NCBI GenBank assembly: GCA_025927935.1
Contig: JAICKM010000137.1
Location: 1-11,938 of the forward strand
DNA length: 11,938 nt
Direction: 5' to 3'
Source of the DNA: Chloroflexia bacterium
Lineage (GTDB): Bacteria > Chloroflexota > Chloroflexia > QHBQ01 > JADMIH01
Below, one piece after another: positions 1,646 through 11,938 of this stretch (positions within the stretch are counted from its first letter, which is position 1; the number at the start of each line of letters is the position of its first letter). The notes under the pieces were generated by a model. The model searched no databases. It worked only from the letters and a program-made list of their open reading frames with translations, and was not told the origin of the DNA. A program made the translations under genes and the position numbers.

Positions 1646-2565
1646 GCGATTACCTGACAAGCCTGGTGCAGCGCGCGCGCGGGGAGACCGGCGTGGTCCG
1701 GCCCATCGTGCAACCGGTGTTTGCGCCGGAACGGGCGGACCTACCATCCGTGCCGGCCGGTACCTGGCCGGGCATAGCCGGGCCAGAGATCCCGGCGCCC
1801 GCGCCGCGCACCCGCGCCGCCGCGCGCCCCGCGGAAGCCGGTCCACTTCCGGTACCCGCGCCACTACCGGCTGAGCAATCCGGGCCAGGCGATCCGCTAT
1901 CCCCAGCGCCCCCTTTAAGCCCAGAGGCGAATCGCCTATACCCTACCCCGCTGCCGCCCACATCGGGCGGGCTACAGCCGTCTCCGGCGCAGCAATACAC
2001 GGTAGAGCACCCAACAAGCGCAAATCCGCCACTATCTATTGCTCTACCTGACTCACTCGCCGGGCCGCAAACGGCTCCATCACCCTTGCAGCCATCCCGG
2101 ACCCCTGCGGTTGCACCCTTGCCTACCCCGGCGGTGCGGGCGGGTATGCCGGCTATCGATCCGCCCGTGCAGCAAGGCACCGGCGAACCAGGTGTCCGCC
2201 GCACCGGGCAGGATGCCCCCGACTTCGCGTCTGTCACCGGGACTCAGCATCCCACCGCGCAAGTAGCGGCAAGGAGACAGGCCGGCCGGCCGCCTGCTGG
2301 CGAGCAGATCATCCCTGTGCCGCGCGAGCCGGATCGGCCGGCGGCGCGCCCGGCGACAGCTCCGGCGCCGCGCAGGGCGGCGGCAGATAACCAGGCAGCC
2401 CCTCCACCGCCGCCCGCGATTCGGGTATCCATCGGACGGATCGAGGTGCGCGCCATGCTGCCGGCCCCGCCGCTCCCGGCGCCCATACCCGCGCCCGCGC
2501 CGTCCGCGCCGCTAGTGACTCTCGACGCCTATCTGCGCGAGCGCACCGGGAGACGTGACCGATGA
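1642..2565 (+). CDS. Pro/Ala-rich disordered eCIS-associated protein with conserved N- and C-terminal motifs
   Basis: This 307-aa protein is dominated by Pro, Ala, Gly, Ser and Thr from about residue 38 to 258, with no predictable fold. Its two ends look conserved. The N-terminus 'MSDYLTSLVQRARGETGVVRP' (1-21) has an amphipathic helix and a basic/Val-Pro segment. Residues 260-273 'IRVSIGRIEVRAML' form strand-like sequence, then after a Pro-rich spacer comes 'TLDAYLRER' (293-301), a likely helix. Proteins of this design (short head, disordered middle, 'IGRIEVRA' tail) recur at this position in eCIS clusters as I recall them, without a known function. A flexible tether or scaffold between baseplate or cap parts is a reasonable guess. 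It has ATGA overlaps on both sides. The stretch near 1980-2120 uses more A/T-ending codons than its neighbours, as expected for a weakly constrained linker. Confidence 0.7.
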   Translation: MSDYLTSLVQRARGETGVVRPIVQPVFAPERADLPSVPAGTWPGIAGPEIPAPAPRTRAAARPAEAGPLPVPAPLPAEQSGPGDPLSPAPPLSPEANRLYPTPLPPTSGGLQPSPAQQYTVEHPTSANPPLSIALPDSLAGPQTAPSPLQPSRTPAVAPLPTPAVRAGMPAIDPPVQQGTGEPGVRRTGQDAPDFASVTGTQHPTAQVAARRQAGRPPAGEQIIPVPREPDRPAARPATAPAPRRAAADNQAAPPPPPAIRVSIGRIEVRAMLPAPPLPAPIPAPAPSAPLVTLDAYLRERTGRRDR

Positions 2566-3767
2566 GCAACCCCTTCGCCATTGCCGCTGTCACCGCCACG
2601 TTCGGCCAGTTGCTGGGCCGCGTGACCGAAGACTCCACGCTCGCCGGTGCCGGCGTCACCAACCGCCCGCTGGACAAAGCCCGCGCGGCCGGCGACACCA
2701 ACCGGCAGTTGAACCTGTTTCTCTATCAGGTCAGCGCGGACCCGGCCTGGCGCAATATGGATCTGCCGTTCCGTAATGCCGGCGGCGAACTGAACAACCG
2801 GCCCGTGCTGGCGCTCGATCTCCACTATCTGCTGACCGCCTACGGCCAGAACGACGACGACCTGGACGCCCAGCACCTGCTGGCCCACGCGATGAGCCTG
2901 GTCCATGACGAGGCCGCCTTCACCCGCGATCAGGTCCGCGCGGCCCTCATCGCCGAGCCATCCGTCGCTCTGAGCGACCTGGCCGACCAGATCGAACTGG
3001 TGAAGGTCTGTCTGGAGACCCCCTCACTGGAAGAAGTCTCCAAGCTGTGGACGACGTTCCTGACCCAATATCGTCTATCTGTGGCCTACCGGGCATCTGT
3101 AGTGCTCATCGAGCGGCCCCTGCGGGCCAGGATTGCGCCGCCGGTGCGCGCCGCCAACGTCTACGTCCTGCCGTTCCGCCGCCCGGTGATCGATACCGTC
3201 AGCCCGCAGGTGGCGCTGCCCGGCGATCAACTCGTCATCCAGGGCCATAACCTCCAGGCCGATGGGGTCCAGGTGCGCTTCGGCGCCGTGGTCGCCGTCC
3301 CGGCGACGCTGACCGACCGGCAGATTACGGTGCCTGTGCCGGCCACGGTGCCGGCCGGTGTCAATACGGTCCAGGTGATACAACAACTCGACCTCGGCAC
3401 CCCGGCCACGCCGCATCGCGGGTTCGAGTCGAACGTGGCCGCCTTTATCCTGGCCCCGCGCATCACCACGCCGCAGCCGATCAGCGTGGCCCGTGGCGCC
3501 ACGCTGTCGCTGGCGTTCCAGCCGCCGGTCAGCCGGGCGCAACAGGTAGCGATCCTGATGGGCGACCAGCAGATCACGCTACCCGCCCGCGCGGCGGGAT
3601 CCGCCCCGGTGACCACCCTGGGCTTCCCGATCCCCGCCGCCTTCCCGACCGGCGATTACCTGCTGCGCCTGCGCGTGGATGGCGCGGAGAGTCCGCTGGA
3701 GACGGACACGGACTCGACCAGCCCGACCTTCAACCAGTATATCGGACCCAAGGTGACGATCACATGA
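2562..3767 (+). CDS. DUF4255 (Pvc16/Afp16-type) tail-terminator/cap protein with Ig-like (IPT/TIG) domains
   Basis: The protein is 401 aa. Residues 8-186 match the DUF4255/Pvc16 N-terminal domain. Visible pieces are 'AIAAVTATFGQLL' (helix 1), 'RQLNLFLYQVSADPAWRN' (48-65), 'RPVLALDLHYLLTAYG' (80-95), the helix 'DAQHLLAHAMSLVHDE' (102-117), and 'LWTTFLTQYRLSVAYRASVVLIE' (162-184). In AFP/PVC this protein ends tube and sheath growth and caps the distal end of the particle. A Pro-rich hinge leads into an IPT/TIG-like beta-sandwich (about 208-298: 'VISP'-like 'VIDTVSPQVALPGDQLVIQG', then 'GVQVRFG', 'TVPAGVNTVQVIQ'). A second beta domain of roughly 100 residues (299-401) follows. Many cap proteins stop after the DUF4255 domain, so the C-terminal sandwiches are extra and could be exposed on the particle. 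ATGA overlaps join it to both neighbours. Confidence 0.9.
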   Translation: MSNPFAIAAVTATFGQLLGRVTEDSTLAGAGVTNRPLDKARAAGDTNRQLNLFLYQVSADPAWRNMDLPFRNAGGELNNRPVLALDLHYLLTAYGQNDDDLDAQHLLAHAMSLVHDEAAFTRDQVRAALIAEPSVALSDLADQIELVKVCLETPSLEEVSKLWTTFLTQYRLSVAYRASVVLIERPLRARIAPPVRAANVYVLPFRRPVIDTVSPQVALPGDQLVIQGHNLQADGVQVRFGAVVAVPATLTDRQITVPVPATVPAGVNTVQVIQQLDLGTPATPHRGFESNVAAFILAPRITTPQPISVARGATLSLAFQPPVSRAQQVAILMGDQQITLPARAAGSAPVTTLGFPIPAAFPTGDYLLRLRVDGAESPLETDTDSTSPTFNQYIGPKVTIT

Positions 3768-5758
3768 CCGCCGACGACATGCTCTGGACCGAGGCCAACC
3801 AGCGCTACCTGACCGCGGCGCTGGCCGGGGTGCGTGTGCGCCTACAGCAGCAGGCCGCCCAAAACGGCGCTCCACCCCCGACGGCCCCGACGGACGACGC
3901 ACCGGACCTATCCGCCGGCGCAGATACCGGCGAGTTCCCAGCGGACCAGATGCCGCCTCCCGCCCTGGAAACGCTTTGCGCCGCGTTCGGGGTGTCGCAC
4001 TTCGAGCGCCAGATCGTGCTGCTCTGCGCGGGCGTGGAACTCGACGCCCGCTTCTCCAGCCTCTGTGCGGCCGCGCAGGGCGACCCGGCGCGCGCCTATC
4101 CGACCTTTAGCCTGGCCCTGGCCGCGCTGGACGACCCGCACTGGAGCGCCGTCACGCCGGCAGGACCGCTACGGCGCTGGCGCCTGATCGAAATCGGCAC
4201 CCTGCCCGGCGTCCCGCTGACGCAGAGTCCGTTGCGTCTCGACGAGCGCATCCTCCATTACCTGGCCGGGGTGCAACACCTGGATGAGCGCCTGGCCGAT
4301 CTGCTCACCCATGTCCATCCCGAGGCGGATCTGGTGCCGTCGCACCAGGCTATCGCCGGCGACATCCGCGCTGTTCTGGCGCGTTCCAATCACCAGCCGC
4401 CGCTCATCCAGCTTTGTGGCGCCGACAGCGGTACCAAGCATGCCATCGCTGCCGCCGCCTGTGCCGCGGTGGGGCTACACCTGTTTGCGCTGGCGGGTGA
4501 GGCGATCCCGAACCATCCGACCGAGCGTGAAGGGCTGCTCCGGCTGTGGGCGCGCGAGGCTACGCTCACCACCAGCGCCCTGTACATCGACGCCACAGCC
4601 GTCGATATGGCCGACGCCCATGCCGTGTCCGGCCTCAGTGCTTTTCTGGAGCGGGTGCGCGGCGTAGTGGTGCTGGGGACGCGCGGGCGCTGGCCGGCGC
4701 TGTTGCGGCCCATGCGCACGCTCGAAATTCACAAACCAGCGCCGGAGGAACAGCGCGCCTTGTGGCAAGCGGCGCTGGGCGAGGCCGCACCCCGCCTCAA
4801 CGGCCACGTCACCCGCCTGGCAACCGAGTTCAACCTGAGCGCGACCGCGATCCGGGCCACGGCCCGCGAAGCGCTGGACGGCGAGGGTACGCCGGAGATG
4901 CTGGCGGCACGGCTGTGGGATGCCGGCCGCGCCCAGGTGCGCCCGCAACTGGACGACATGGCCCAGCGTATTGAGCCGGCCGCCACCTGGCAGGATCTGG
5001 TCCTGCCCGAGACGGCGCAGCAGGGCCTGCGCGAGATCGCCGCGCATGTCCGCCGGCGGGCCACCGTGTATGACACCTGGGGTTTCGCCGGCAAAGGCGC
5101 CCGCGGCCTGGGCATCAGCGCCCTGTTCGCCGGGGCCAGCGGCACCGGCAAGACGATGGCCGCCGAGGTGCTGGCGGGCGAACTGGGCCTGGACCTCTAC
5201 CGCATCGACCTGAGCCAGATCGTCAACAAATACATCGGCGAGACCGAGAAAAATCTCCGGCGCGTCTTCGACGCTGCGGAGGATGGCGGCGCCATCCTCT
5301 TCTTTGACGAGGCCGACGCCCTCTTCGGCAAGCGCAGCGAGGTCAAGGATAGCCACGACCGCTACGCCAACATCGAGATCAACTACCTGCTCCAGCGTAT
5401 GGAGCTATATCGGGGCCTGGCCGTGCTGGCGTCGAACATGAAAAGTGCGCTCGATCCGGCGTTCCTGCGCCGCATCCGCTTCGTGATCAACTTCCCATTC
5501 CCCGACGCGACCCAGCGGGTCGAGATCTGGCGGCGCATTTTCCCGGCCGCCACGCCGACCGAGGGCCTGGACATGGCGCGCCTGGCGCAACTGAACATCG
5601 CCGGCGGCAGCATCCGCAACATTGCGCTCAACGCGACCTTCCTGGCCGCCGACGCGGGCGAGCCGGTGCGTATGCGCCACCTGCTGCAAGCGACGCGCAG
5701 CGAGTACGCCAAGGTGGAGAAACCGCTGAACGCGACCGAGATCGGGGGCTGGCTATGA
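3764..5758 (+). CDS. AAA+ ATPase (Afp15/Pvc15-type eCIS ATPase)
   Basis: This 664-aa protein has a complete C-terminal AAA+ module. Walker A is GASGTGKT (457-464) and Walker B is ILFFDEAD (511-518). Sensor-1 Asn lies in 'VLASNMK' (N558), and arginine-finger candidates lie in 'DPAFLRRIRF' (R569-R572). A C-terminal lid starts near 'GGSIRNIALNATFLA'. The upstream half (about 65-390) looks like a second, inactive ATPase fold. 'GADSGTKH' (219-226) aligns with Walker A but lacks the final Gly and Thr, and 'ALYIDATAV' (272-280) resembles Walker B with Glu replaced by Ala. In AFP/PVC systems the ATPase is needed for proper particle production or cargo handling; exactly how is not resolved. The gene lies between the cap gene and the small-protein/cargo region, so a loading or assembly role is plausible. 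Confidence 0.94.
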   Translation: MTADDMLWTEANQRYLTAALAGVRVRLQQQAAQNGAPPPTAPTDDAPDLSAGADTGEFPADQMPPPALETLCAAFGVSHFERQIVLLCAGVELDARFSSLCAAAQGDPARAYPTFSLALAALDDPHWSAVTPAGPLRRWRLIEIGTLPGVPLTQSPLRLDERILHYLAGVQHLDERLADLLTHVHPEADLVPSHQAIAGDIRAVLARSNHQPPLIQLCGADSGTKHAIAAAACAAVGLHLFALAGEAIPNHPTEREGLLRLWAREATLTTSALYIDATAVDMADAHAVSGLSAFLERVRGVVVLGTRGRWPALLRPMRTLEIHKPAPEEQRALWQAALGEAAPRLNGHVTRLATEFNLSATAIRATAREALDGEGTPEMLAARLWDAGRAQVRPQLDDMAQRIEPAATWQDLVLPETAQQGLREIAAHVRRRATVYDTWGFAGKGARGLGISALFAGASGTGKTMAAEVLAGELGLDLYRIDLSQIVNKYIGETEKNLRRVFDAAEDGGAILFFDEADALFGKRSEVKDSHDRYANIEINYLLQRMELYRGLAVLASNMKSALDPAFLRRIRFVINFPFPDATQRVEIWRRIFPAATPTEGLDMARLAQLNIAGGSIRNIALNATFLAADAGEPVRMRHLLQATRSEYAKVEKPLNATEIGGWL

Positions 5759-6039
5759 TGCCCGACATCGAACTGGACATCGACGAACTGGTGCTGCACG
5801 GCTTCGCGCCCGGCGACGGCGAAGGGATCGGCGCCGCGATCCAACGCGAACTGGCCCGCCTCTTTGCCGAGCAGGGGCTACCGGCGGGGCTGGGCGCCGG
5901 GGGCGCCGTCCCGCGCCTGGACGGCGGCGGATTCCCGGTCGCGGCGGGCGCGACTACGGACGCCATTGGCGCCCAGGTGGCGCACGCGGTCTACGGCGGA
6001 CTGGCGCGCGCTGCCAACCCGGAACACACACGATCCTGA
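5755..6039 (+). CDS. Small eCIS-associated protein of unknown function (94 aa)
   Basis: The ATG at 5755 overlaps the ATPase stop (ATGATG); the second ATG at 5758 is equally possible and removes one Met. The product is acidic at the N-terminus, with 'IELDIDELVLHGFAPGDGEGI' (about 5-25), then an amphipathic helix 'AAIQRELARLFAEQGLP', a Gly-rich turn, and a final helix 'DAIGAQVAHAVYGGLARA'. I recognise the 'IDELVLHGF' plus 'RELARLxAEQGLP' pattern from small genes that sit after the AAA+ ATPase in many eCIS clusters, but I know of no assigned function. It has no signal peptide or membrane segment. Its tight coupling to the ATPase suggests an ATPase partner or a chaperone/adaptor for the proteins encoded next. 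That role is inferred. Confidence 0.75.
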   Translation: MMPDIELDIDELVLHGFAPGDGEGIGAAIQRELARLFAEQGLPAGLGAGGAVPRLDGGGFPVAAGATTDAIGAQVAHAVYGGLARAANPEHTRS

Positions 6040-6059
6040 CTGGCGGCCTGGACCGTCGC

Positions 6060-6065
6060 GAGGAG
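6060..6065 (+). promoter_or_regulatory. Shine-Dalgarno deciding the start of the first paralogue
   Basis: GAGGAG lies 8 nt before the ATG at 6074. It favours that start over in-frame upstream starts such as 5864, which would run through the preceding gene. The second paralogue begins with the same 'MRT(H/Y)QR' sequence, which confirms the choice. Confidence 0.7.
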
Positions 6066-6073
6066 CACACGTC

Positions 6074-6934
6074 ATGCGCACCCATCAGCGAGCCGAAAAC
6101 CACGCAGGGCCAACGCCCATTGCGTTGCCCGCGCTCCGGAGGGATAATCCCGCGGCGGCGCAGGGGGGGCCGACCACGCACCATTACACCGTAGGCGCCG
6201 GTCATGATTTTAGCCGCATAAGTGTCCATGACGATCACGGCGCCGGCGCCGGGTTAGACGACGCTGGACAACAGTCCCGCCACGTGAAGGGCACGGAATC
6301 CTTCCCCGAGGAAGAGGGCCAGGCTGCCGACCCTGAGCTGAAGCGGCTGGATAACGGATCGGGATCCGGTTCCGGATCGGGGTCCGGCTCCGGATCGGGA
6401 TCGGGATCGGGGTCGGGCACCAAGGCGGCCACGCCTACTCTGGCCGCCTCCGGCGACGATTATAGCGGCGACACGGCTACCGAGTCCCACAAGAAGATCC
6501 GCTTCGACGTGACCATCCCCTCCGGCGTCACAGCGGGCGACTACGCGCTGGTCAATATGGTGAAAGGCTCCATGAAAGACGGCGACGGCAAATTCTTCAA
6601 AGCTAAAATGTACGGCAAAACCGTAGACGCCAATTACGCGGACTGGGTGGTCGATTCGATGGACGAAGATCCGGTCTACTGGAGCGACAGCACGGCGCGC
6701 TGGCGGTACAAGTCCACATCCACCGGCTTCTATGCCACCGATAATCCTGGCCCGGCGCTTAGCTCCGAGACCGGCGCCGTCTACGCGCTGAAATTCAAAA
6801 TGGGCCTGTACAAACTGAGCGACGTGCCGACTACGACCACGGGCACCATCAGTGCCACGCCGCTGGCCGAGTATCCCTGGCAATATTCGGTAGTCGTGGA
6901 CAAGAGCGGCAAGTTCAGCCACCCGGCGATCTAG
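6074..6934 (+). CDS. Putative eCIS cargo/accessory protein A: DUF4157-like leader remnant, (GS)10 linker, 171-aa C-terminal domain
   Basis: With the start at 6074 the product is 286 aa. Residues 1-60 resemble the leader of DUF4157 (eCIS core domain) proteins: basic 'MRTHQRAENH', then 'GHDFSRISVH' (43-52), nearly the family's GHDFSRxxVH signature. The HELxH metal-binding helix that normally follows is absent. Next come an acidic patch 'FPEEEGQAADPELKR' (77-91), a perfect (GS)10 linker (95-114), and a 171-residue domain (116-286). That domain is rich in aromatic residues and strands, with 'IRFDVTIPSGVTAGDYALVN', 'DEDPVYWS', 'DNPGPALSSETGAVYA', 'KFKMGLYKL' and the ending 'WQYSVVV...GKFSHPAI'. 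I do not recognise its function. No signal peptide or membrane segment is visible. By position and leader it is a candidate injected cargo or tube-lumen protein; a surface or structural accessory is the alternative. Confidence 0.75.
   Translation: MRTHQRAENHAGPTPIALPALRRDNPAAAQGGPTTHHYTVGAGHDFSRISVHDDHGAGAGLDDAGQQSRHVKGTESFPEEEGQAADPELKRLDNGSGSGSGSGSGSGSGSGSGSGTKAATPTLAASGDDYSGDTATESHKKIRFDVTIPSGVTAGDYALVNMVKGSMKDGDGKFFKAKMYGKTVDANYADWVVDSMDEDPVYWSDSTARWRYKSTSTGFYATDNPGPALSSETGAVYALKFKMGLYKLSDVPTTTTGTISATPLAEYPWQYSVVVDKSGKFSHPAI
6356..6415 (+). repeat. Low-complexity Gly-Ser coding repeat, 10 units
   Basis: Ten consecutive GGN-TCN hexamers (GGATCG, GGATCC, GGTTCC, GGGTCG variants) encode (Gly-Ser)10. 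Mixed synonymous codons in the first half and uniform GGATCG units in the second half suggest growth of the repeat toward its 3' side. It makes a flexible linker in the protein. Confidence 0.9.
6395..6438 (+). repeat. 44-bp direct repeat, copy 1 (copy 2 at 7285-7328)
   Basis: The 44 bases ending the GS linker and starting the C-terminal domain are identical to those 890 bp downstream. The copy continues in register, with scattered substitutions and no gaps, to both stop codons (6934 and 7824, also 890 apart). This marks a gene duplication, possibly with local gene conversion. Confidence 0.9.
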
Positions 6935-6950
6935 CCGGCGTGTGCCGGCG
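6935..6950 (+). other. Small perfect hairpin directly after the stop codon
   Basis: GCCGGC-GTGT-GCCGGC forms a 6-bp all-G/C stem with a 4-nt loop immediately after the TAG of cargo-like gene A. No T-run follows, so it is not a standard intrinsic terminator. It could slow 3' exonuclease or tune read-through into gene B, but short GC palindromes are frequent at this base composition. Confidence 0.35.
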
Positions 6951-6961
6951 GGAGGCACGGG

Positions 6962-6968
6962 AAGGAGG
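6962..6968 (+). promoter_or_regulatory. Strong Shine-Dalgarno of the second paralogue
   Basis: AAGGAGG lies 10 nt before the ATG at 6979. This is a stronger match than that of gene A. It supports 6979 over the in-frame upstream ATG near 6940, because that longer form would place the SD inside the coding region. Confidence 0.75.
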
Positions 6969-6978
6969 AGCAGACCTG

Positions 6979-7824
6979 ATGCGCACCTATCAACGACGAC
7001 CGAGCCATGCAGGACCGGGGATTATCCCGTTGTCGATGCTGCGGCGCCCCGACGCGGACGGCGCTGCTCCCGTGGGACCGGTGACGCGCCACTACCCGGC
7101 AGGCGCGGGCCACAACTTCAGCAACGTCCGGGTGCACGACGAGCAGCGCGCCGGGGCCGGGCAACAAATCGCCGGAACTAAGGGGGCCGAAACCCTACCG
7201 GACGAAGAGGGTCCGACTGGCGATCCGGAACTCAAGCGCGCCGCTGGCCCCGACGCGGGGGTGCCCACGGATGCCGGTTCCGGCTCGGGATCGGGATCGG
7301 GGTCGGGCACCAAGGCGGCCACGCCTACGCTGGCTGCCTCGAAGGATGACTATAGCGGCGATACCGCCACCGAGTCGCACAAAAAGATCCGCTTCGACGT
7401 GACCATTCCGTCCGGGGTTACAGCCGGCGATTATGCCCTGGTCAACAAGCTGAAAGGCTCGCAGAAAGACGGATCCGGCAAGGCTTTCAAGGTCACGATG
7501 TACGGCAAAACGGTCGATTTTGATTTTGCGGACTGGCAGGTGGATTCGCTGGACGAGGACCCTGTCTACTGGAGCAAGGACGGCACGCGCTGGAGATACA
7601 ATTCGACCCCTACCGGCTTCTTCGCCACCGACGATCCCGGCCCGGCGCTGAGTTCGGAGACGGGCGCCGTCTACGCGGTCAAGTTTAAGATGGGCTTGTA
7701 TAAGCTGGCCGACCTGCCCGAGAAGACCACCGGCAGTATCAGCGCCACGCCGCTGGCCGAGTACGACTGGCAATATTCGGTGGTCGTGGATAGCCACGGG
7801 AAGTTTAGCCACCCGGCGATCTAG
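6979..7824 (+). CDS. Putative eCIS cargo/accessory protein B: tandem paralogue with (GS)5 linker
   Basis: The product is 281 aa and has the same plan as the preceding gene. The leader is 'MRTYQRRPSH' with 'GHNFSNVRVH' (44-53), then the acidic 'LPDEEGPTGDPELKR' (73-87), a (GS)5 linker (100-109), and the 171-aa C-terminal domain (111-281). I counted about 30 differences over the 171 aligned residues (about 82% identity, no gaps); the leaders are clearly more diverged. Substitutions cluster in short loops such as 'MVKGSMKDGDGKFF' versus 'KLKGSQKDGSGKAF' and 'SDSTARW' versus 'KDGTRW'. The core strands and the 'DPGPALSSETGAVYA' and 'GKFSHPAI' segments are kept. This is the pattern of a constrained fold with variable surface loops. 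There is no HExxH motif, signal peptide or membrane segment. Its function is unknown; context suggests delivery or particle association. Confidence 0.75.
   Translation: MRTYQRRPSHAGPGIIPLSMLRRPDADGAAPVGPVTRHYPAGAGHNFSNVRVHDEQRAGAGQQIAGTKGAETLPDEEGPTGDPELKRAAGPDAGVPTDAGSGSGSGSGSGTKAATPTLAASKDDYSGDTATESHKKIRFDVTIPSGVTAGDYALVNKLKGSQKDGSGKAFKVTMYGKTVDFDFADWQVDSLDEDPVYWSKDGTRWRYNSTPTGFFATDDPGPALSSETGAVYAVKFKMGLYKLADLPEKTTGSISATPLAEYDWQYSVVVDSHGKFSHPAI
7276..7305 (+). repeat. Low-complexity Gly-Ser coding repeat, 5 units
   Basis: Five GGN-TCN hexamers encode (Gly-Ser)5, half the length of the linker in the upstream paralogue. The last units are base-identical to that copy, which fits repeat-unit gain or loss after duplication. 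Confidence 0.9.
7285..7328 (+). repeat. 44-bp direct repeat, copy 2 (copy 1 at 6395-6438)
   Basis: This is the downstream copy of the identical block that spans the linker/domain boundary. Flanking homology continues to the stop codon. Confidence 0.9.
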
Positions 7825-7848
7825 CCGCCGGACCCTGGAGGCACACCG

Positions 7849-8127
7849 ATGCACAAGCACGACAGCAGCAAACGCGACCACATCCGGCAATTGCTGGACG
7901 AACTGAACGAATGGGAACAGAAATACGGCATCCGGTACTCCGGCGACCCGCGGCTGAAGAGCACCGGCGAATCCAACGCGCGGATCGAGGACTTGAAGGC
8001 CCAACTGGCCGAGTTAGGGGCGCGGGTGCATTGGAACGGAACCGAATATGTGCTGGACGCCGGCACAACGGCGCCCGGCGATCCCGATCAAGCGGCATCG
8101 CAGCCAGAGGACGACGCTGACGCCTAA
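7849..8127 (+). CDS. Small helical protein of unknown function in the cargo cassette (92 aa)
   Basis: TGGAGG at 7836-7841 sits 7 nt before the ATG. The N-terminus is charged and helical ('SSKRDHIRQLLDELNEWEQKYG', about 6-27). A turn 'SGDPRLKSTGES' follows, then a second helix 'ARIEDLKAQLAELGARV' (44-60) with a heptad-like Leu pattern, and a short strand 'HWNGTEYVLDAG'. The tail is acidic and disordered (about 72-92). I do not recognise a family. A small, helical, acidic-tailed protein directly after two cargo-like genes could be a loading chaperone or adaptor. That comes from size and position only. Cytoplasmic, since no signal or membrane segment is seen. Confidence 0.7.
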   Translation: MHKHDSSKRDHIRQLLDELNEWEQKYGIRYSGDPRLKSTGESNARIEDLKAQLAELGARVHWNGTEYVLDAGTTAPGDPDQAASQPEDDADA

Positions 8128-8142
8128 GCCGCGCGGCGCGGC
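8128..8142 (+). other. Short perfect hairpin directly after the stop codon
   Basis: GCCGCG-CGG-CGCGGC forms a 6-bp G/C stem with a 3-nt loop, starting at the first base after the TAA of the 92-aa gene. There is no T-tract. Its placement repeats that of the hairpin at 6935, at a cassette boundary, but chance is possible at this GC content. Confidence 0.3.
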
Positions 8143-8162
8143 CCGATGATGGAGAACCAAGC

Positions 8163-8810
8163 ATGACTACTTTCCCAGGCTCCCCGCGCTTGCTCAAGGG
8201 CGCGATTGTCGGCATCGACCCGCTGAACCCGCTGGCGAGCGTGATCGTGTTCCAGTACAACCCGGAAACGCTCACCCGCACGTTGACCCCGCAGATGGCG
8301 GGCGGCACCGGGTCCGACCGATCCGAAGCATTGCGCCTCAAGGGCGCGCCCATCGAGGCGATCACCGTGGCCGTCGAGATCGACGCCACCGACCAACTGG
8401 AGAAGGCCGACGCCCTGGCCGTCAGTATGGGCATCTACCCGCAACTGTCGGCGCTGGAGATGCTCATCTACCCCAAGAGCGCCCTGGTCATCGCCAACAC
8501 TGTACTGCTGGCCCTCGGCACCATCGAGATCATTCCGCCCGAAGCGCCGATGACGCTGTTTATCTGGGGACCGAAGCGGGTGCTGCCCGTGCGCCTCACC
8601 CAGTTCAGCATCGCCGAGGAAGCCTACGACGTGAACCTGAACCCGATCCGCGCCAAAGTGACGCTGGGCTTGCAGGTCTTGAGCTACAACGATCTGCCGC
8701 TGAGCCACCCCGGCTACGCGCTCTTCCTGGCGCACCAGGTGGTCAAGGAGACGATGGCGACGATCAGCAGTGTCGGCAATATCTCCTCGCTCGTGAGTGG
8801 ATCCTTCTAG
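8163..8810 (+). CDS. CIS tube/baseplate adaptor protein (Afp7/Pvc7 N-terminal type)
   Basis: This 215-aa protein carries the hallmark 'VFQYNPETLTRTL' (29-41) of the contractile injection system tube-protein domain (N-terminal half of Afp7/Pvc7, related in role to T4 gp53 and the tube-baseplate adaptor). Further support comes from 'IEAITVAVEIDATDQLE' (64-80), a hydrophobic helix 'SALVIANTVLLALG' (106-119), 'TLFIWGPKRVLPVRLTQFSI' (131-150) and 'NPIRAKVTLGLQVL' (160-173). In AFP this component binds the hub and the first tube ring and carries a C-terminal LysM domain; here the protein ends without it and the LysM-like part is the next gene. SD GGAG (8151-8154) precedes the ATG by 8 nt. Confidence 0.92.
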   Translation: MTTFPGSPRLLKGAIVGIDPLNPLASVIVFQYNPETLTRTLTPQMAGGTGSDRSEALRLKGAPIEAITVAVEIDATDQLEKADALAVSMGIYPQLSALEMLIYPKSALVIANTVLLALGTIEIIPPEAPMTLFIWGPKRVLPVRLTQFSIAEEAYDVNLNPIRAKVTLGLQVLSYNDLPLSHPGYALFLAHQVVKETMATISSVGNISSLVSGSF

Positions 8811-8835
8811 CCCCGCGCCCATCGGAGGACATGTA

Positions 8836-9126
8836 ATGTTCGACCCAACCAGTCGCTACTACAATCTGGAGACCGCGGGCCTGGTCATGCCTGACGGGCG
8901 TACGGTCGCCTACGTGCGGCGGCGCTTTCTCCCGCAGGGCGCGGCCATGCCGTTGCTGGTGGAGATCACCGTGGCCCAGGGCGACCGCCTCGACCTGATC
9001 ACCGCCCGCACGCTGGGCGACCCGGAGCAGTTCTGGCGCGTGGCCGATGCCAACGATGCCATGAACCCGCCCGATTTAACCGCGCAACTGGGGCGCGTGC
9101 TGCGCGTGCCCATCCCGCAACCTTGA
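8836..9126 (+). CDS. LysM/gpX-like baseplate protein
   Basis: GGAGG at 8824-8828, 7 nt upstream, sets the start at 8836, giving 96 aa; an in-frame ATG at 8797 lies inside the preceding gene and is rejected. The core 'LVEITVAQGDRLDLITARTLGDPEQFWRVADAN' segment (41-73) has the usual LysM pattern: strand, 'GDxLxxIA'-like helix, the Trp in 'QFWRVADAN', and the closing strand 'GRVLRVPIP' (86-94). In contractile systems this small domain (P2 gpX-like, or the C-terminal LysM of Afp7) links hub and tube rather than binding peptidoglycan in the cell wall. N-terminal 'RYYNLETAGLVMPDGRTVAYVRRRF' is typical of the eCIS version. Confidence 0.88.
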   Translation: MFDPTSRYYNLETAGLVMPDGRTVAYVRRRFLPQGAAMPLLVEITVAQGDRLDLITARTLGDPEQFWRVADANDAMNPPDLTAQLGRVLRVPIPQP

Positions 9127-9156
9127 TTCGCCGGATCGCATAAGGAAACTGCCATC

Positions 9157-10293
9157 ATGCTACTGGGCGTGCATTTAACCCTGTTGATCGGCCCGACCAT
9201 CGCCGTGCCGGCCCCGATCCAGTTGACCGAAGCGCTGCAAAGCGTGCGGGTCTCGCATAGCGACGACCGGCAATCAGGCTTCGAGATCACCTTCCAGATC
9301 GGGCGCTCCGGCCCCGCCGACATGCTCGACTACGCGCTAGTCAGCAATCCGCTGCTCAAGCCCTTCAACCGGGTCGTGATCGTCGTGACCTTCAGCGCCA
9401 CGCCGCGCGTGCTCATGGACGGCATCATCACCCACCAGCAGGTGTCGCCCAGCAACCAGCCCGGCGCCTCCACTATGACCATCATCGGCGAAGATGTCAG
9501 CGTGATGATGGACCGCAAGGAGCAATCCGCCGAACACCCCGCCCAGGACGAGACGATTATCGCCCTGAAGCTGATCGCTAGTTACGCGCAGTACGGCCTC
9601 ATCCCGCTGGTCATCCCGCCGCCCGCGCTCGACGTGCCGATCCCCATCGAGCGCACCCCGGTCCAGCAAGCCACCGATCTGCAATACCTCAAGCAGATGG
9701 CCGCGCGCTATGGCTATGTCTTCTACATCACGCCTGGCCCGGCCCCGCTGACCAACACGGCCTATTGGGGGCCGCCCATACGGGCGGGCGTGCCGCAATC
9801 GGCGCTCACCCTCAACATGGGGCCGGAGACGAACGTGGACAGCTTCCACGTGCGCAACAACGCCCTGGAACCCACGGTGGTCGAGGGTAAGGTGCAGGAC
9901 CGCACCACCAATCAGAGCCTGCCGGTGCAGACCTTCGCCAGCCTGCGCCCGCCGCTGGCCGCCTTCCCGGCCTGGGTCGCCAACGCGGCCAACCTGCGCC
10001 ACGTCCAGTTCCGCGAGAGCGGGGTGAACACCGCGCAAGCCTTCGCCCGCGCCCAGGGCACCATGGACGCCTCCGTGGACGCCGTGATCGCCGAGGGCGA
10101 CCTGGACGCCACGCGCTACGGCAATCTGCTGCAACCGCGCGGCCTGGTGGGCGTGCGCGGCGCGGGCTACCTGAACGACGGCTTCTGGTACGTCAAGAGC
10201 GTGGATCATACCGTCCGCAAGGGCACATACCAGCAGCACTTTACGCTATCCCGCGAGGGCGTCGGGTCGACAACGCCCACGGTGATCCCATGA
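9157..10293 (+). CDS. Phage late control protein D-like baseplate hub (VgrG/Afp8 N-terminal half)
   Basis: The protein is 378 aa. It begins with a beta-rich tube-like domain ('DRQSGFEITFQIGRSGP', then 'NRVVIVVTFS', then 'RVLMDGIITHQQVSPS'). The DUF-like middle has 'TIIGEDVSVMMDRKE' and 'ALKLIASYAQYGLIP'. A segment typical of gpD/VgrG hubs follows: 'QQATDLQYLKQMAARYGYVFYI', 'NTAYWGPP', 'VDSFHVRNNALEPT'. The C-terminus has 'LLQPRGLVGVRGAGYLNDGFWYVKSVDHTV' and 'YQQHFTLSREG'. Three such subunits form the pseudo-hexameric hub that adapts the threefold spike to the sixfold tube. AFP/PVC fuse gpD and gpV in one protein; here the spike is a separate gene starting 4 bp before this stop. AAGGA (9142-9146) is the likely SD. 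Confidence 0.94.
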   Translation: MLLGVHLTLLIGPTIAVPAPIQLTEALQSVRVSHSDDRQSGFEITFQIGRSGPADMLDYALVSNPLLKPFNRVVIVVTFSATPRVLMDGIITHQQVSPSNQPGASTMTIIGEDVSVMMDRKEQSAEHPAQDETIIALKLIASYAQYGLIPLVIPPPALDVPIPIERTPVQQATDLQYLKQMAARYGYVFYITPGPAPLTNTAYWGPPIRAGVPQSALTLNMGPETNVDSFHVRNNALEPTVVEGKVQDRTTNQSLPVQTFASLRPPLAAFPAWVANAANLRHVQFRESGVNTAQAFARAQGTMDASVDAVIAEGDLDATRYGNLLQPRGLVGVRGAGYLNDGFWYVKSVDHTVRKGTYQQHFTLSREGVGSTTPTVIP

Positions 10294-10787
10294 GCCAGTT
10301 TTTCGGCAAGTACCGCGGCAAGGTCGCCAACAACATCGACCCGATGCAGTTGGGGCGCGTGCAGGTCAGCGTGCCCGCCGTGCTGGGCGACGGCAGCCTC
10401 AGTTGGGCCATGCCCTGCGCGCCCTACGGCGGGCCGGGCGTCGGCTTCTTCACCGTGCCGCCGGTCGGGGCCAACATCTGGGTCGAATTCGAGGGCGGCG
10501 ATTCGGATTACCCCATCTGGAGTGGCTGCTTCTGGGGCGTGGGCGAAGTGCCCGCCCAACCGGCCCTGCCCCAGATGAAGGTCTGGAAAACCGACGGCAT
10601 CACCCTGACCCTGAGCGACATCCCCGGCGCAGGCGGGTTCACGGTCGAGGTCGGCCCGCCGGTGGTGCCCATCCCGCTGAAGATGGTGTTCAACGCCGCG
10701 GGCATCGAGATCAGCAACAGCGCGGCCAGCGTCAAGCTGACCCCGGCCAGCGTCTCGCTCAACAACGGCGCCCTGGAGGTGATCTGA
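10290..10787 (+). CDS. Phage baseplate assembly protein V-like spike (OB-fold plus short beta-helix)
   Basis: This 165-aa protein opens with the gpV/gp5 OB-fold: 'FFGKYRGKVANNIDPMQLGRV' region (4-23), 'VQVSVPAVLGDG', 'AMPCAPYGGPGVGFFTVPPVG' region (40-60), and 'ANIWVEFEGGDSDYPIWSGCFWG' region (61-83). The C-terminal half (about 96-165) has short alternating strands ('ITLTLSDIPG', 'FTVEVG', 'KMVFNAAGIEISNSAASVKLTPASVSLNNGALEVI' in outline) that would wind into a trimeric beta-helix. It carries the PAAR tip encoded next and punctures the target membrane. The beta-helix is short compared with T4 gp5, and no lysozyme domain is present. ATGA overlap with gpD; TGATG overlap with the next gene. Confidence 0.94.
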   Translation: MSQFFGKYRGKVANNIDPMQLGRVQVSVPAVLGDGSLSWAMPCAPYGGPGVGFFTVPPVGANIWVEFEGGDSDYPIWSGCFWGVGEVPAQPALPQMKVWKTDGITLTLSDIPGAGGFTVEVGPPVVPIPLKMVFNAAGIEISNSAASVKLTPASVSLNNGALEVI

Positions 10788-11107
10788 TGCCCGGCTTTCT
10801 CTTGCACGTGGGGGCGACGGTGCTGTGCGCGCACGGCGGCCAGGCCCAACCGACCGTGCCCAACCCGCGCGTGCTGGTGGGCGGGCAGCCGGTGGTCACG
10901 CAATCCGGCCCCTATGTCGTCGCGGGCTGCCCGTTTGTGCCGCCGGGCGGCAACGGCCCCTGCGTCACCGCGCAGTGGGTAACGGGCGCGACCCGTGTGC
11001 TGGCGGGCGGGGTGCCCGTCCTGATGCAGGATAGCCAGGCCATCTGCGCGCCCACCGGCACGCCTTTGATGATCGTAGTAACCCAGGTCCGGGTAAGGGG
11101 AATGTGA
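10787..11107 (+). CDS. PAAR-like spike tip protein
   Basis: The start is the ATG of TGATG at 10787, overlapping the gpV stop by one base, giving 106 aa. 'FLLHVGATVLCAHGGQ' (4-19), 'RVLVGGQPVV' (28-37), 'GCPFVPP' (47-53), 'RVLAGGVPVLMQDSQAIC' (70-87) and the tail 'MIVVTQVRVRG' show the repeated beta-hairpin pattern of PAAR proteins. These fold into a cone with a metal site at the tip that sharpens the spike. Candidate metal ligands are H7, C14, H16, C48, C59 and C88, so the site may be Cys-rich rather than the His-rich site of classical PAAR tips. Size and position right after gpV match Afp10-type tip genes. Confidence 0.85.
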   Translation: MPGFLLHVGATVLCAHGGQAQPTVPNPRVLVGGQPVVTQSGPYVVAGCPFVPPGGNGPCVTAQWVTGATRVLAGGVPVLMQDSQAICAPTGTPLMIVVTQVRVRGM

Positions 11108-11463
11108 TGCAGATCGACTACCCATACCATTTCGATAGCCGCGGGCGCACCGCAACCACCGACCAGGACGACCATATCCGCGACCTGATCGAGCAGGTGC
11201 TGTTCACTGTGCCCGGTGAGCGGGTCAACCGGCCCACCTTCGGCACCGGCCTGCTGCAACTGGTCTTCGCGCCCAACAGCGACGAACTGGCGACCGCCAC
11301 GCAATTCCTGGTGCAATCGGCGCTGCAACAATGGCTGGGCGACCTGATCCAGGTCGAGGCCGTGGCCGTCGAAAACGTCGACTCGACCCTGCGCCTGACT
11401 GTCCAGTACACCGTCCGGCGTACCCAGCAGCGCCAGGTCGCGCAGTTCTCCCGCGAGGTTTGA
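11107..11463 (+). CDS. gp25/gpW-like baseplate wedge protein (Afp9 type)
   Basis: The ATG at 11107 (TGATG overlap with the PAAR stop) gives 118 aa; a GTG at 11104 is possible but less likely. AAGGGG just upstream can serve as the SD. The protein shows the gp25 core: 'DHIRDLIEQVLFTVPGERVNRPTFG' region (22-46), corresponding to the 'EPR' sheath-contacting turn, then 'GLLQLVFAPNSDELATATQFLVQSALQQWLG' region (48-78) and the closing strands 'IQVEAVAVENVDSTLRLTVQYTVRR' region (81-105). gp25 docks the first sheath ring on the baseplate and starts sheath assembly. The next gene, gpJ-like, follows after 2 bp, the standard wedge order. Confidence 0.94.
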   Translation: MQIDYPYHFDSRGRTATTDQDDHIRDLIEQVLFTVPGERVNRPTFGTGLLQLVFAPNSDELATATQFLVQSALQQWLGDLIQVEAVAVENVDSTLRLTVQYTVRRTQQRQVAQFSREV

Positions 11464-11465
11464 TC

Positions 11466-11938
11466 ATGGCTACTCAGTACCGCTGCCGCAACCAGGCTCG
11501 CCGCATCGCCGTCCGCGAAACGATCGGCGGCGACGGCCAACCGCTGCGCAACGGCATCGACTTCCTGGAGGTCGGCGCCGATCAGCAGACGTTGCGCGTG
11601 CATTTCATCCACAACCTGCCGGTCAGCTCCGCCCCGGTGCCGGCGCCCGGCAACGTGCGTATCGACGGCGGCGTGCGCATCAAGGACATCAAGGTCACGG
11701 CGGTGACTTCGGTGGACGATGTACTCACGGTCGTGACCGACCGGGCCGGCGACTTCTCCACCTATACGTTGCGCCTGGTTACGTCGCCAACCAACCCCGC
11801 GCCGCCCCCGCCGATGGACGTGCAACTGAGCGAGGTGCAATTCACCTTCAAGGTCGATTGCCCCAGCGACTTCGACTGCGCGCCGGAGACGGCCTGCCCG
11901 CCCGACCAACCGCCGGAGCCGCTCATCGACTACCTGGC
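11466..11938 (+). CDS. gpJ-like baseplate wedge protein (Afp11 type), N-terminal part (3' end cut by window)
   Basis: The frame is open from the ATG at 11466, 2 bp after the gp25 stop, to the window end: 157 codons with no stop. The N-terminal sequence fits the eCIS 'putative baseplate assembly protein' (gpJ/Afp11). It has 'YRCRNQARRIAVRE' (5-18), 'GIDFLEVGADQQTLRVHFI' (30-48), 'NVRIDGGVRIKDIKVTAV' (63-80), 'GDFSTYTLRLV' (95-105), 'LSEVQFTFKVDCPSDFDC' (121-138) and 'PLIDYL' (152-157), leading to the first helix of the core. C132, C138 and C144 form a small cysteine cluster. The full protein would be far longer; the family forms the baseplate ring that holds the wedges and contacts the fibre-bearing gpI. 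Confidence 0.9.
   Translation, partial: MATQYRCRNQARRIAVRETIGGDGQPLRNGIDFLEVGADQQTLRVHFIHNLPVSSAPVPAPGNVRIDGGVRIKDIKVTAVTSVDDVLTVVTDRAGDFSTYTLRLVTSPTNPAPPPPMDVQLSEVQFTFKVDCPSDFDCAPETACPPDQPPEPLIDYL

Follow-up and report, generated by a model that had tools for sequence, protein, structure and literature searches.

Two adjacent genes of a Chloroflexia bacterium raise the question of what an eCIS operon does with a pair of short, similar proteins whose C-terminal domain has no recognised family. The window, by which we mean the whole stretch of 11,938 nucleotides that was analysed, is an eCIS operon in which the tail tube, Pvc16_N, AAA+, OB spike and gp25 genes score above the Pfam cut-offs. 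It opens with the end of a sheath gene (1-363), matching a frame of a related locus (L004) that Pfam names Phage_sheath, and continues with the genes for the tail tube (375-893; PF06841), a T4_baseplate-type protein (890-1645), a Pvc16_N protein (2562-3767) and the eCIS AAA+ ATPase with its winged-helix domain (3764..5758, + strand; PF00004 and PF22977). Behind the ATPase gene lies a small conserved gene (5755..6039, + strand, 94 aa) with homologues in the same place in L001, L019-L023, L025 and L027. Genes A and B and a further small gene follow, and then the gene of the CIS tube protein (8163..8810, + strand), which is named by synteny together with a PF19266 score of 21.2 bits, below the cut-off of 27. 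The operon goes on with genes for a tail-X-like protein (match below the cut-off), a gpD-like protein (named from its position and a weak PHROG match), the OB-fold spike (PF04717), a DUF4280/PAAR-like protein (slightly below the cut-off) and gp25 (above it). A and B sit between the AAA+ ATPase gene and the CIS tube gene, which form the upstream and downstream borders of the cargo slot, and the eCIS setting beside an AAA+ ATPase that an earlier note on this DNA had proposed is borne out.

Two other genes of the operon have unusual products. The T4_baseplate-type protein contains two CxxC pairs (CPEC and CPAC) and matches many zinc-ribbon models below their cut-offs; it possibly binds zinc. Between this gene and the Pvc16 gene, positions 1642-2565 encode a 307-aa low-complexity protein rich in Pro and Ala, whose same-place counterparts in L001, L019, L021 and L025 give short matches only.

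Gene A (6074..6934 including the stop, + strand) encodes 286 aa and has a GAGGAG 5' of its ATG, as judged by eye; gene B (6979..7824 including the stop, + strand) encodes a 281-aa paralogue. The two open reading frames were recovered exactly as the earlier note had delimited them, with the common order of modules that it had described. In the leader, the motif GHDFSRISVH (A residues 43-52; 6200..6229, + strand), interpreted here as the first part of what was once an eCIS_core/DUF4157 domain, corresponds to GHNFSNVRVH in B (residues 44-53; 7108..7137, + strand), and both proteins carry the acidic patch that the note had seen (ESFPEEEGQAADPELKR in A and ETLPDEEGPTGDPELKR in B). The description of the leader as basic holds in a mild form only, the net charge across residues 1-40 being +2/+4. 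The linkers are pure Gly-Ser runs, as noted, of 21 residues in A (95-115; 6356..6418, + strand) and 11 in B (100-110; 7276..7308, + strand), uninterrupted and written in mixed codons.

The linkers are followed by C-terminal domains of 169 aa (A, 6425..6931, + strand, model ma456fab607a6; B, 7315..7821, + strand). These are 82% identical in protein, the same figure as had been counted by hand, and 78% identical in DNA; identity is 71% over the full length and 54% in the leader. Between the two domains dN is 0.126 and dS 0.996 (NG86), and the resulting dN/dS of about 0.13 indicates that the pair diverged under purifying selection.

The domain gave no significant match in Pfam, NCBIfam, PHROG, PADLOC or PDB sequences, so that its description as unrecognised stands and no known housekeeping or unrelated family lays claim to it in these collections. 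Its AlphaFold model is all-beta (pLDDT 95.9), and comparison of this model with solved structures returned weak antibody-like matches only and no resemblance to an enzyme. A search of 5.8 billion proteins found 40 domain relatives at E<=0.01 among the matches listed. Sixteen columns are invariant across 40 aligned domain sequences (alignment A1, which leaves out P0035 with its odd tail and P0042, which is without a full domain), including an Asp-rich stretch, VDSxDxDPxYWS..RWNY, followed by a DxPGP stretch.

Where the leader comes from can be read from these relatives. A and B themselves have no PF13699 (eCIS_core) match at E<=1. An HExxH-bearing eCIS_core precedes the domain in the proteins of L002, P0034, P0043-P0046, P0059, P0060 and P0062 (called by a Pfam run for L002 and P0034, precomputed for the others), the L003 protein also has eCIS_core (PF13699) and the domain in one chain, and P0023 has a partial eCIS_core covering PF13699 positions 1-33 only (38 bits). 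In A, B and many other relatives the leader is reduced to the motif. An HDF-type motif occurs in 24 of the 36 leaders that reach 40 aa or more (42 proteins minus P0042, which has no recognisable domain, and minus five shorter leaders; shuffles gave a mean of 0.1 and a maximum of 3), and an acidic patch ending in KR in 12 of 56 when leaders from 50 aa upwards are counted (on average 0.15 and at most 2 in shuffles), by patterns that, like the lipobox pattern used below, were composed after the sequences had been viewed. Since relatives with a full or partial eCIS_core exist, the most plausible reading of the leader of A and B is that of a DUF4157 remnant, and the comparison supports this origin. 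The note had called the leader DUF4157-like; the kinship stands, the domain itself is absent from A and B, and we therefore name them DUF4157-derived rather than DUF4157 proteins.

The spacer behind the leader is interchangeable among the relatives, which have Gly-Ser runs, DAG repeats, glycine-zipper-like segments (in L001, PF13441 slightly above the cut-off) or, in proteins of the Flavobacteriales type, peptidoglycan-binding-like segments (PF01471, above the cut-off in L002 and L003 and below it in L031). The leader, too, looks like a reusable module, since a GHDFSRVSIL leader stands before another C-terminal domain in L025 (8722-10200, - strand), in the same cargo slot and followed by a gene for 169 aa; this cassette has no Pfam match at E<=0.01.

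Scanning genome contigs with two short patterns yielded six further loci with the domain (Thermomicrobiales, two Flavobacteriales, Accumulibacter, Paucibacter sp. KBW04 and Roseateles oligotrophus S00239; L001-L006), and a seventh, L031, was found when genomes from the order of G002 were sampled. Phylum names of relatives, where absent from the record titles, are those which we take to apply. All eight domain loci, counting the window, are linked to eCIS, seven by structural genes and L003, a short contig, by the eCIS_core in the protein itself; the suggestion that homologues keep to eCIS loci agrees with every locus examined. In the window and in L001, L005 and L006 the A/B-type genes keep a constant place directly ahead of the tube gene. 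The domain appears to be rare: among 301 Chloroflexota genomes sampled, 60 match Pvc16_N (59 above the cut-off) and one of these has the domain, a figure that is an upper-limit impression rather than a census, since at most 8 candidates were scored in the listed genomes, with a model that includes leader columns, and the contig scan relied on two short patterns.

What other Chloroflexota keep in this slot was compared in nine stretches around Pvc16_N genes without the domain, six of which show both borders. In all six the interval from ATPase to tube gene holds an HExxH protein, and in none of them is there a homologue of A, B or the small gene; the slot proteins of L021, L025 and L027, the three run against Pfam, all contain eCIS_core, that of L027 with an Aspzincin match slightly below the cut-off. 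This synteny supports the view that A and B occupy an eCIS cargo position. The slot of the Thermomicrobiales locus (L001) contains two more eCIS_core proteins (5535-7046 and 7483-9486), one with a stretch that resembles NlpC/LRAT and a tail rich in glycine, as seen by eye, and the other with a long C-terminal part without a Pfam match.

Cargo and core do not appear, on the whole, to be tied to each other. L025 shares 72-81% identity with the window in its tube, gpD, spike, PAAR and gp25 genes but only 55% in its ATPase and 41% in its cap protein (Pvc16), and its cargo is unrelated; in L002, L004 and L031 the domain is 48-54% and the matched core genes are 32-46% identical to those of the window. 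In L005 and L006, however, tube and sheath (73-78%) are closer than the domain (46-50%), so that the identities do not in every case speak for cargo that travelled separately and by themselves are no proof of exchange.

The earlier note saw a tandem pair, which is there, but overlooked the small gene behind it (7849..8127, + strand, 92 aa). In each of the eight loci the domain gene is immediately followed by a homologue of this gene, at distances of 24, 38, 9, 9, 31, -4, -4 and 17 nt (window, L001-L006 and L031, in that order), the two genes overlapping by ATGA in L005 and L006. One protein, P0040, is a natural fusion of a partner-like part and the domain (37% over 59 aa). A profile search found 25 partner relatives among the matches listed; P0070, from a Chloroflexia bacterium, is 84% identical. 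In P0076 (Luteimonas sp. A611, 123 aa) the partner seems by eye to be tandemly duplicated within one protein.

Genome samples gave the same pairing. The partner was found in 1 of 301 Chloroflexota, 2 of 299 genomes from the family of G006 and 3 of 249 from the order of G002, and the domain in 1 of 301, 2 of 289 and 2 of 249, respectively, the 299 and 289 genomes being non-identical sets from the same family. All five domain-positive genomes in the samples carry the partner, four of them having been search centres or known beforehand and G712 alone deriving from the samples. G797 has a weak partner-like match (E 8.5e-4) without the domain, and no eCIS gene was seen nearby. The protein concerned (L032, 9884-10411, - strand) has 176 aa, an apparent signal peptide and a weakly partner-like C-terminus, and the neighbouring genes resemble purine synthesis genes.

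Partners differ in their N-termini. A hydrophobic stretch with a Cys, fitting the lipobox pattern, starts P0077 and P0079 (the partners of L002 and L003) and P0083, and a lipoprotein-like start was recognised by eye in P0086 and the L031 partner; the pattern is absent from P0085, another partner of the Flavobacteriales type. The Flavobacteriales partner thus looks like a lipoprotein. By the same pattern an export signal is lacking in the window's partner and its close relatives and in the partners of the Pseudomonadota loci, which means that a site in the envelope is not general.

The operon, the domain family, the slot and the pairing with the small gene are established computationally. From them we infer, as the somewhat more probable reading, that A and B are a duplicated candidate cargo effector of the eCIS, accompanied by a cognate partner that is probably an immunity protein. 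Since the same partner gene follows in every related cluster examined, the idea of an effector that comes with its own protection can be put to the test. The leader (residues 1 to about 115), which keeps the start of eCIS_core and the acidic patch, would pass the protein on to the AAA+ ATPase or the tube-initiator/spike hub, to be packed into the tube. In the published work available, PVC payloads depend for loading on the AAA+ ATPase together with a disordered signal at the N-terminus (PMC11495950), and for a small DUF4157 protein a role in connecting cargo with the spike complex has been proposed (PMC13277306). The Gly-Ser run would serve as a flexible spacer, and the 169-aa beta domain would be the delivered part that acts, presumably as a toxin, in the target, its VDSxDxDPxYWS..RWNY and DxPGP stretches perhaps forming a binding or catalytic site. 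The partner, most probably an immunity protein, would bind the domain and be located at its site of action. Among the Flavobacteriales it is lipoprotein-like and the cargo has a peptidoglycan-binding-like segment, whereas elsewhere it is without an export signal; by analogy with VgrG2b and PA0261, the coincidence in three Flavobacteriales loci suggests that the antidote follows the site of action. Counting against the effector reading are the lack of a PF13699 match in A and B and a domain model without likeness to any enzyme.

Other readings have to be weighed against this one. The main rival is an adaptor role of the partner: A and B would still be eCIS cargo, the small gene would encode a chaperone or loading adaptor instead of an immunity protein, and the domain might be a non-toxic payload with a binding or signalling function. 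The fusion P0040, which unites both parts in one chain, is an odd arrangement for toxin and antidote and a natural one for an adaptor; together with the missing export signal of the window's partner and its close relatives it calls for caution on the immunity reading. The translational overlap in L005 and L006 would also suit an adaptor, and the available text of one study raises the idea that DUF4157 works as a chaperone itself, in cis or in trans (PMC11297309). A chaperone for loading in the cytosol should stay there, however, and the lipoprotein-like partner of the Flavobacteriales would leave it, which disfavours this alternative; we hold it to be possible, though rather unlikely.

A still less probable explanation is that A, B and the partner belong to the structure of the particle as accessories specific to a few eCIS, such as a plug, a tip decoration or a membrane anchor. 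A structural part could explain the constant place directly ahead of the tube gene (window, L001, L005 and L006), the conserved pairing and the glycine-zipper segments of some relatives, but it should not be so rare among eCIS (1 of the 60 Pvc16_N-bearing genomes in the 301 Chloroflexota sampled), nor be lacking in L025, with baseplate genes 72-81% identical, nor have its domain last in cargo architectures with eCIS_core. It is very improbable that A and B are degenerate genes, that is, truncated cargo duplicated by drift and without function: the leader is indeed a mere stub of eCIS_core and the two tandem copies are similar, yet purifying selection between them (dN/dS about 0.13) and 16 invariant columns in 40 sequences speak for maintenance.

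Returning to the effector with its cognate partner, DUF4157-type eCIS cargo as a kind is already known. In the literature covered, with subscription papers mostly outside it and the family being nameless, we did not find the payload family, the stripped leader or the constant partner described. We consider it conceivable, and put it forward tentatively, that an undescribed eCIS effector-immunity family spans three phyla, with an all-beta payload acting in the cell envelope, leaders pared from DUF4157, and a small lipoprotein antidote where the target is the periplasm; its leaders would be exchangeable with glycine-zipper and peptidoglycan-binding-like modules. Geller et al. see an intriguing mystery in the absence of immunity genes beside most eCIS toxins that have been verified (PMC8213781), and Danov et al. 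found no further annotated domain in 983 of 1130 predicted DUF4157 toxins (PMC11297309), according to the parts of these papers available. The A/B domain is a compact candidate payload (169 aa, with a confident model) that has a constant neighbour in several phyla and is small enough for easy expression. The passage from full to partial DUF4157 to a ten-residue motif offers a natural deletion series for a minimal eCIS loading tag.

Among known systems, AlgoCIS of Algoriphagus machipongonensis comes close, its tube being filled by two DUF4157 proteins. Like A and B, Cgo1 and Cgo2 are encoded by two cargo genes per cluster and have a common, DUF4157-related N-terminal part; unlike them, they have the DUF4157 domain and differing C-terminal domains, and the accessible text mentions no partner gene (PMC8894135). 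A and B keep the motif only, with near-identical C-terminal domains. EATs (eCIS-associated toxins) with DUF4157 are similarly encoded in eCIS operons and combine an N-terminal DUF4157 with a C-terminal payload; the accessible parts of the reports describe a few toxin-immunity pairs and, for most verified EATs, no identifiable immunity gene (PMC8213781, PMC11297309), whereas A and B have no Pfam domain and a constant partner. The C-terminal domain of VgrG2b and PA0261 (Tpe-Tpi, type VI secretion system) likewise form an effector with an adjacent small gene, and immunity proteins of this kind reach the envelope in diverse ways, PA0261 relatives being lipoproteins in some lineages. The VgrG2b toxin is a DUF4157-type metallopeptidase, as far as the available text goes (PMC6899460); A and B have lost this part and carry a different domain behind it.

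Tme of the Streptomyces davawensis CIS resembles A and B in lying immediately upstream of baseplate-related genes, and its sheath clade is said to include Chloroflexota. In the available text, the Tme-like class is defined by relative ORF length, an N-terminal DUF4157 and conserved synteny, and Tme is very large and has tape-measure homology and a DNase (PMC11126660), unlike A and B, which have fewer than 300 aa and an all-beta domain. We rejected a Tme-like assignment: A and B (286 and 281 aa) match neither PF13699 nor CIS_TMP at E<=1, and position alone agrees. The slot of L021 contains a 1439-aa eCIS_core protein with a terminal Endonuclea_NS_2 domain (7522-11841), which resembles Tme in layout and position.
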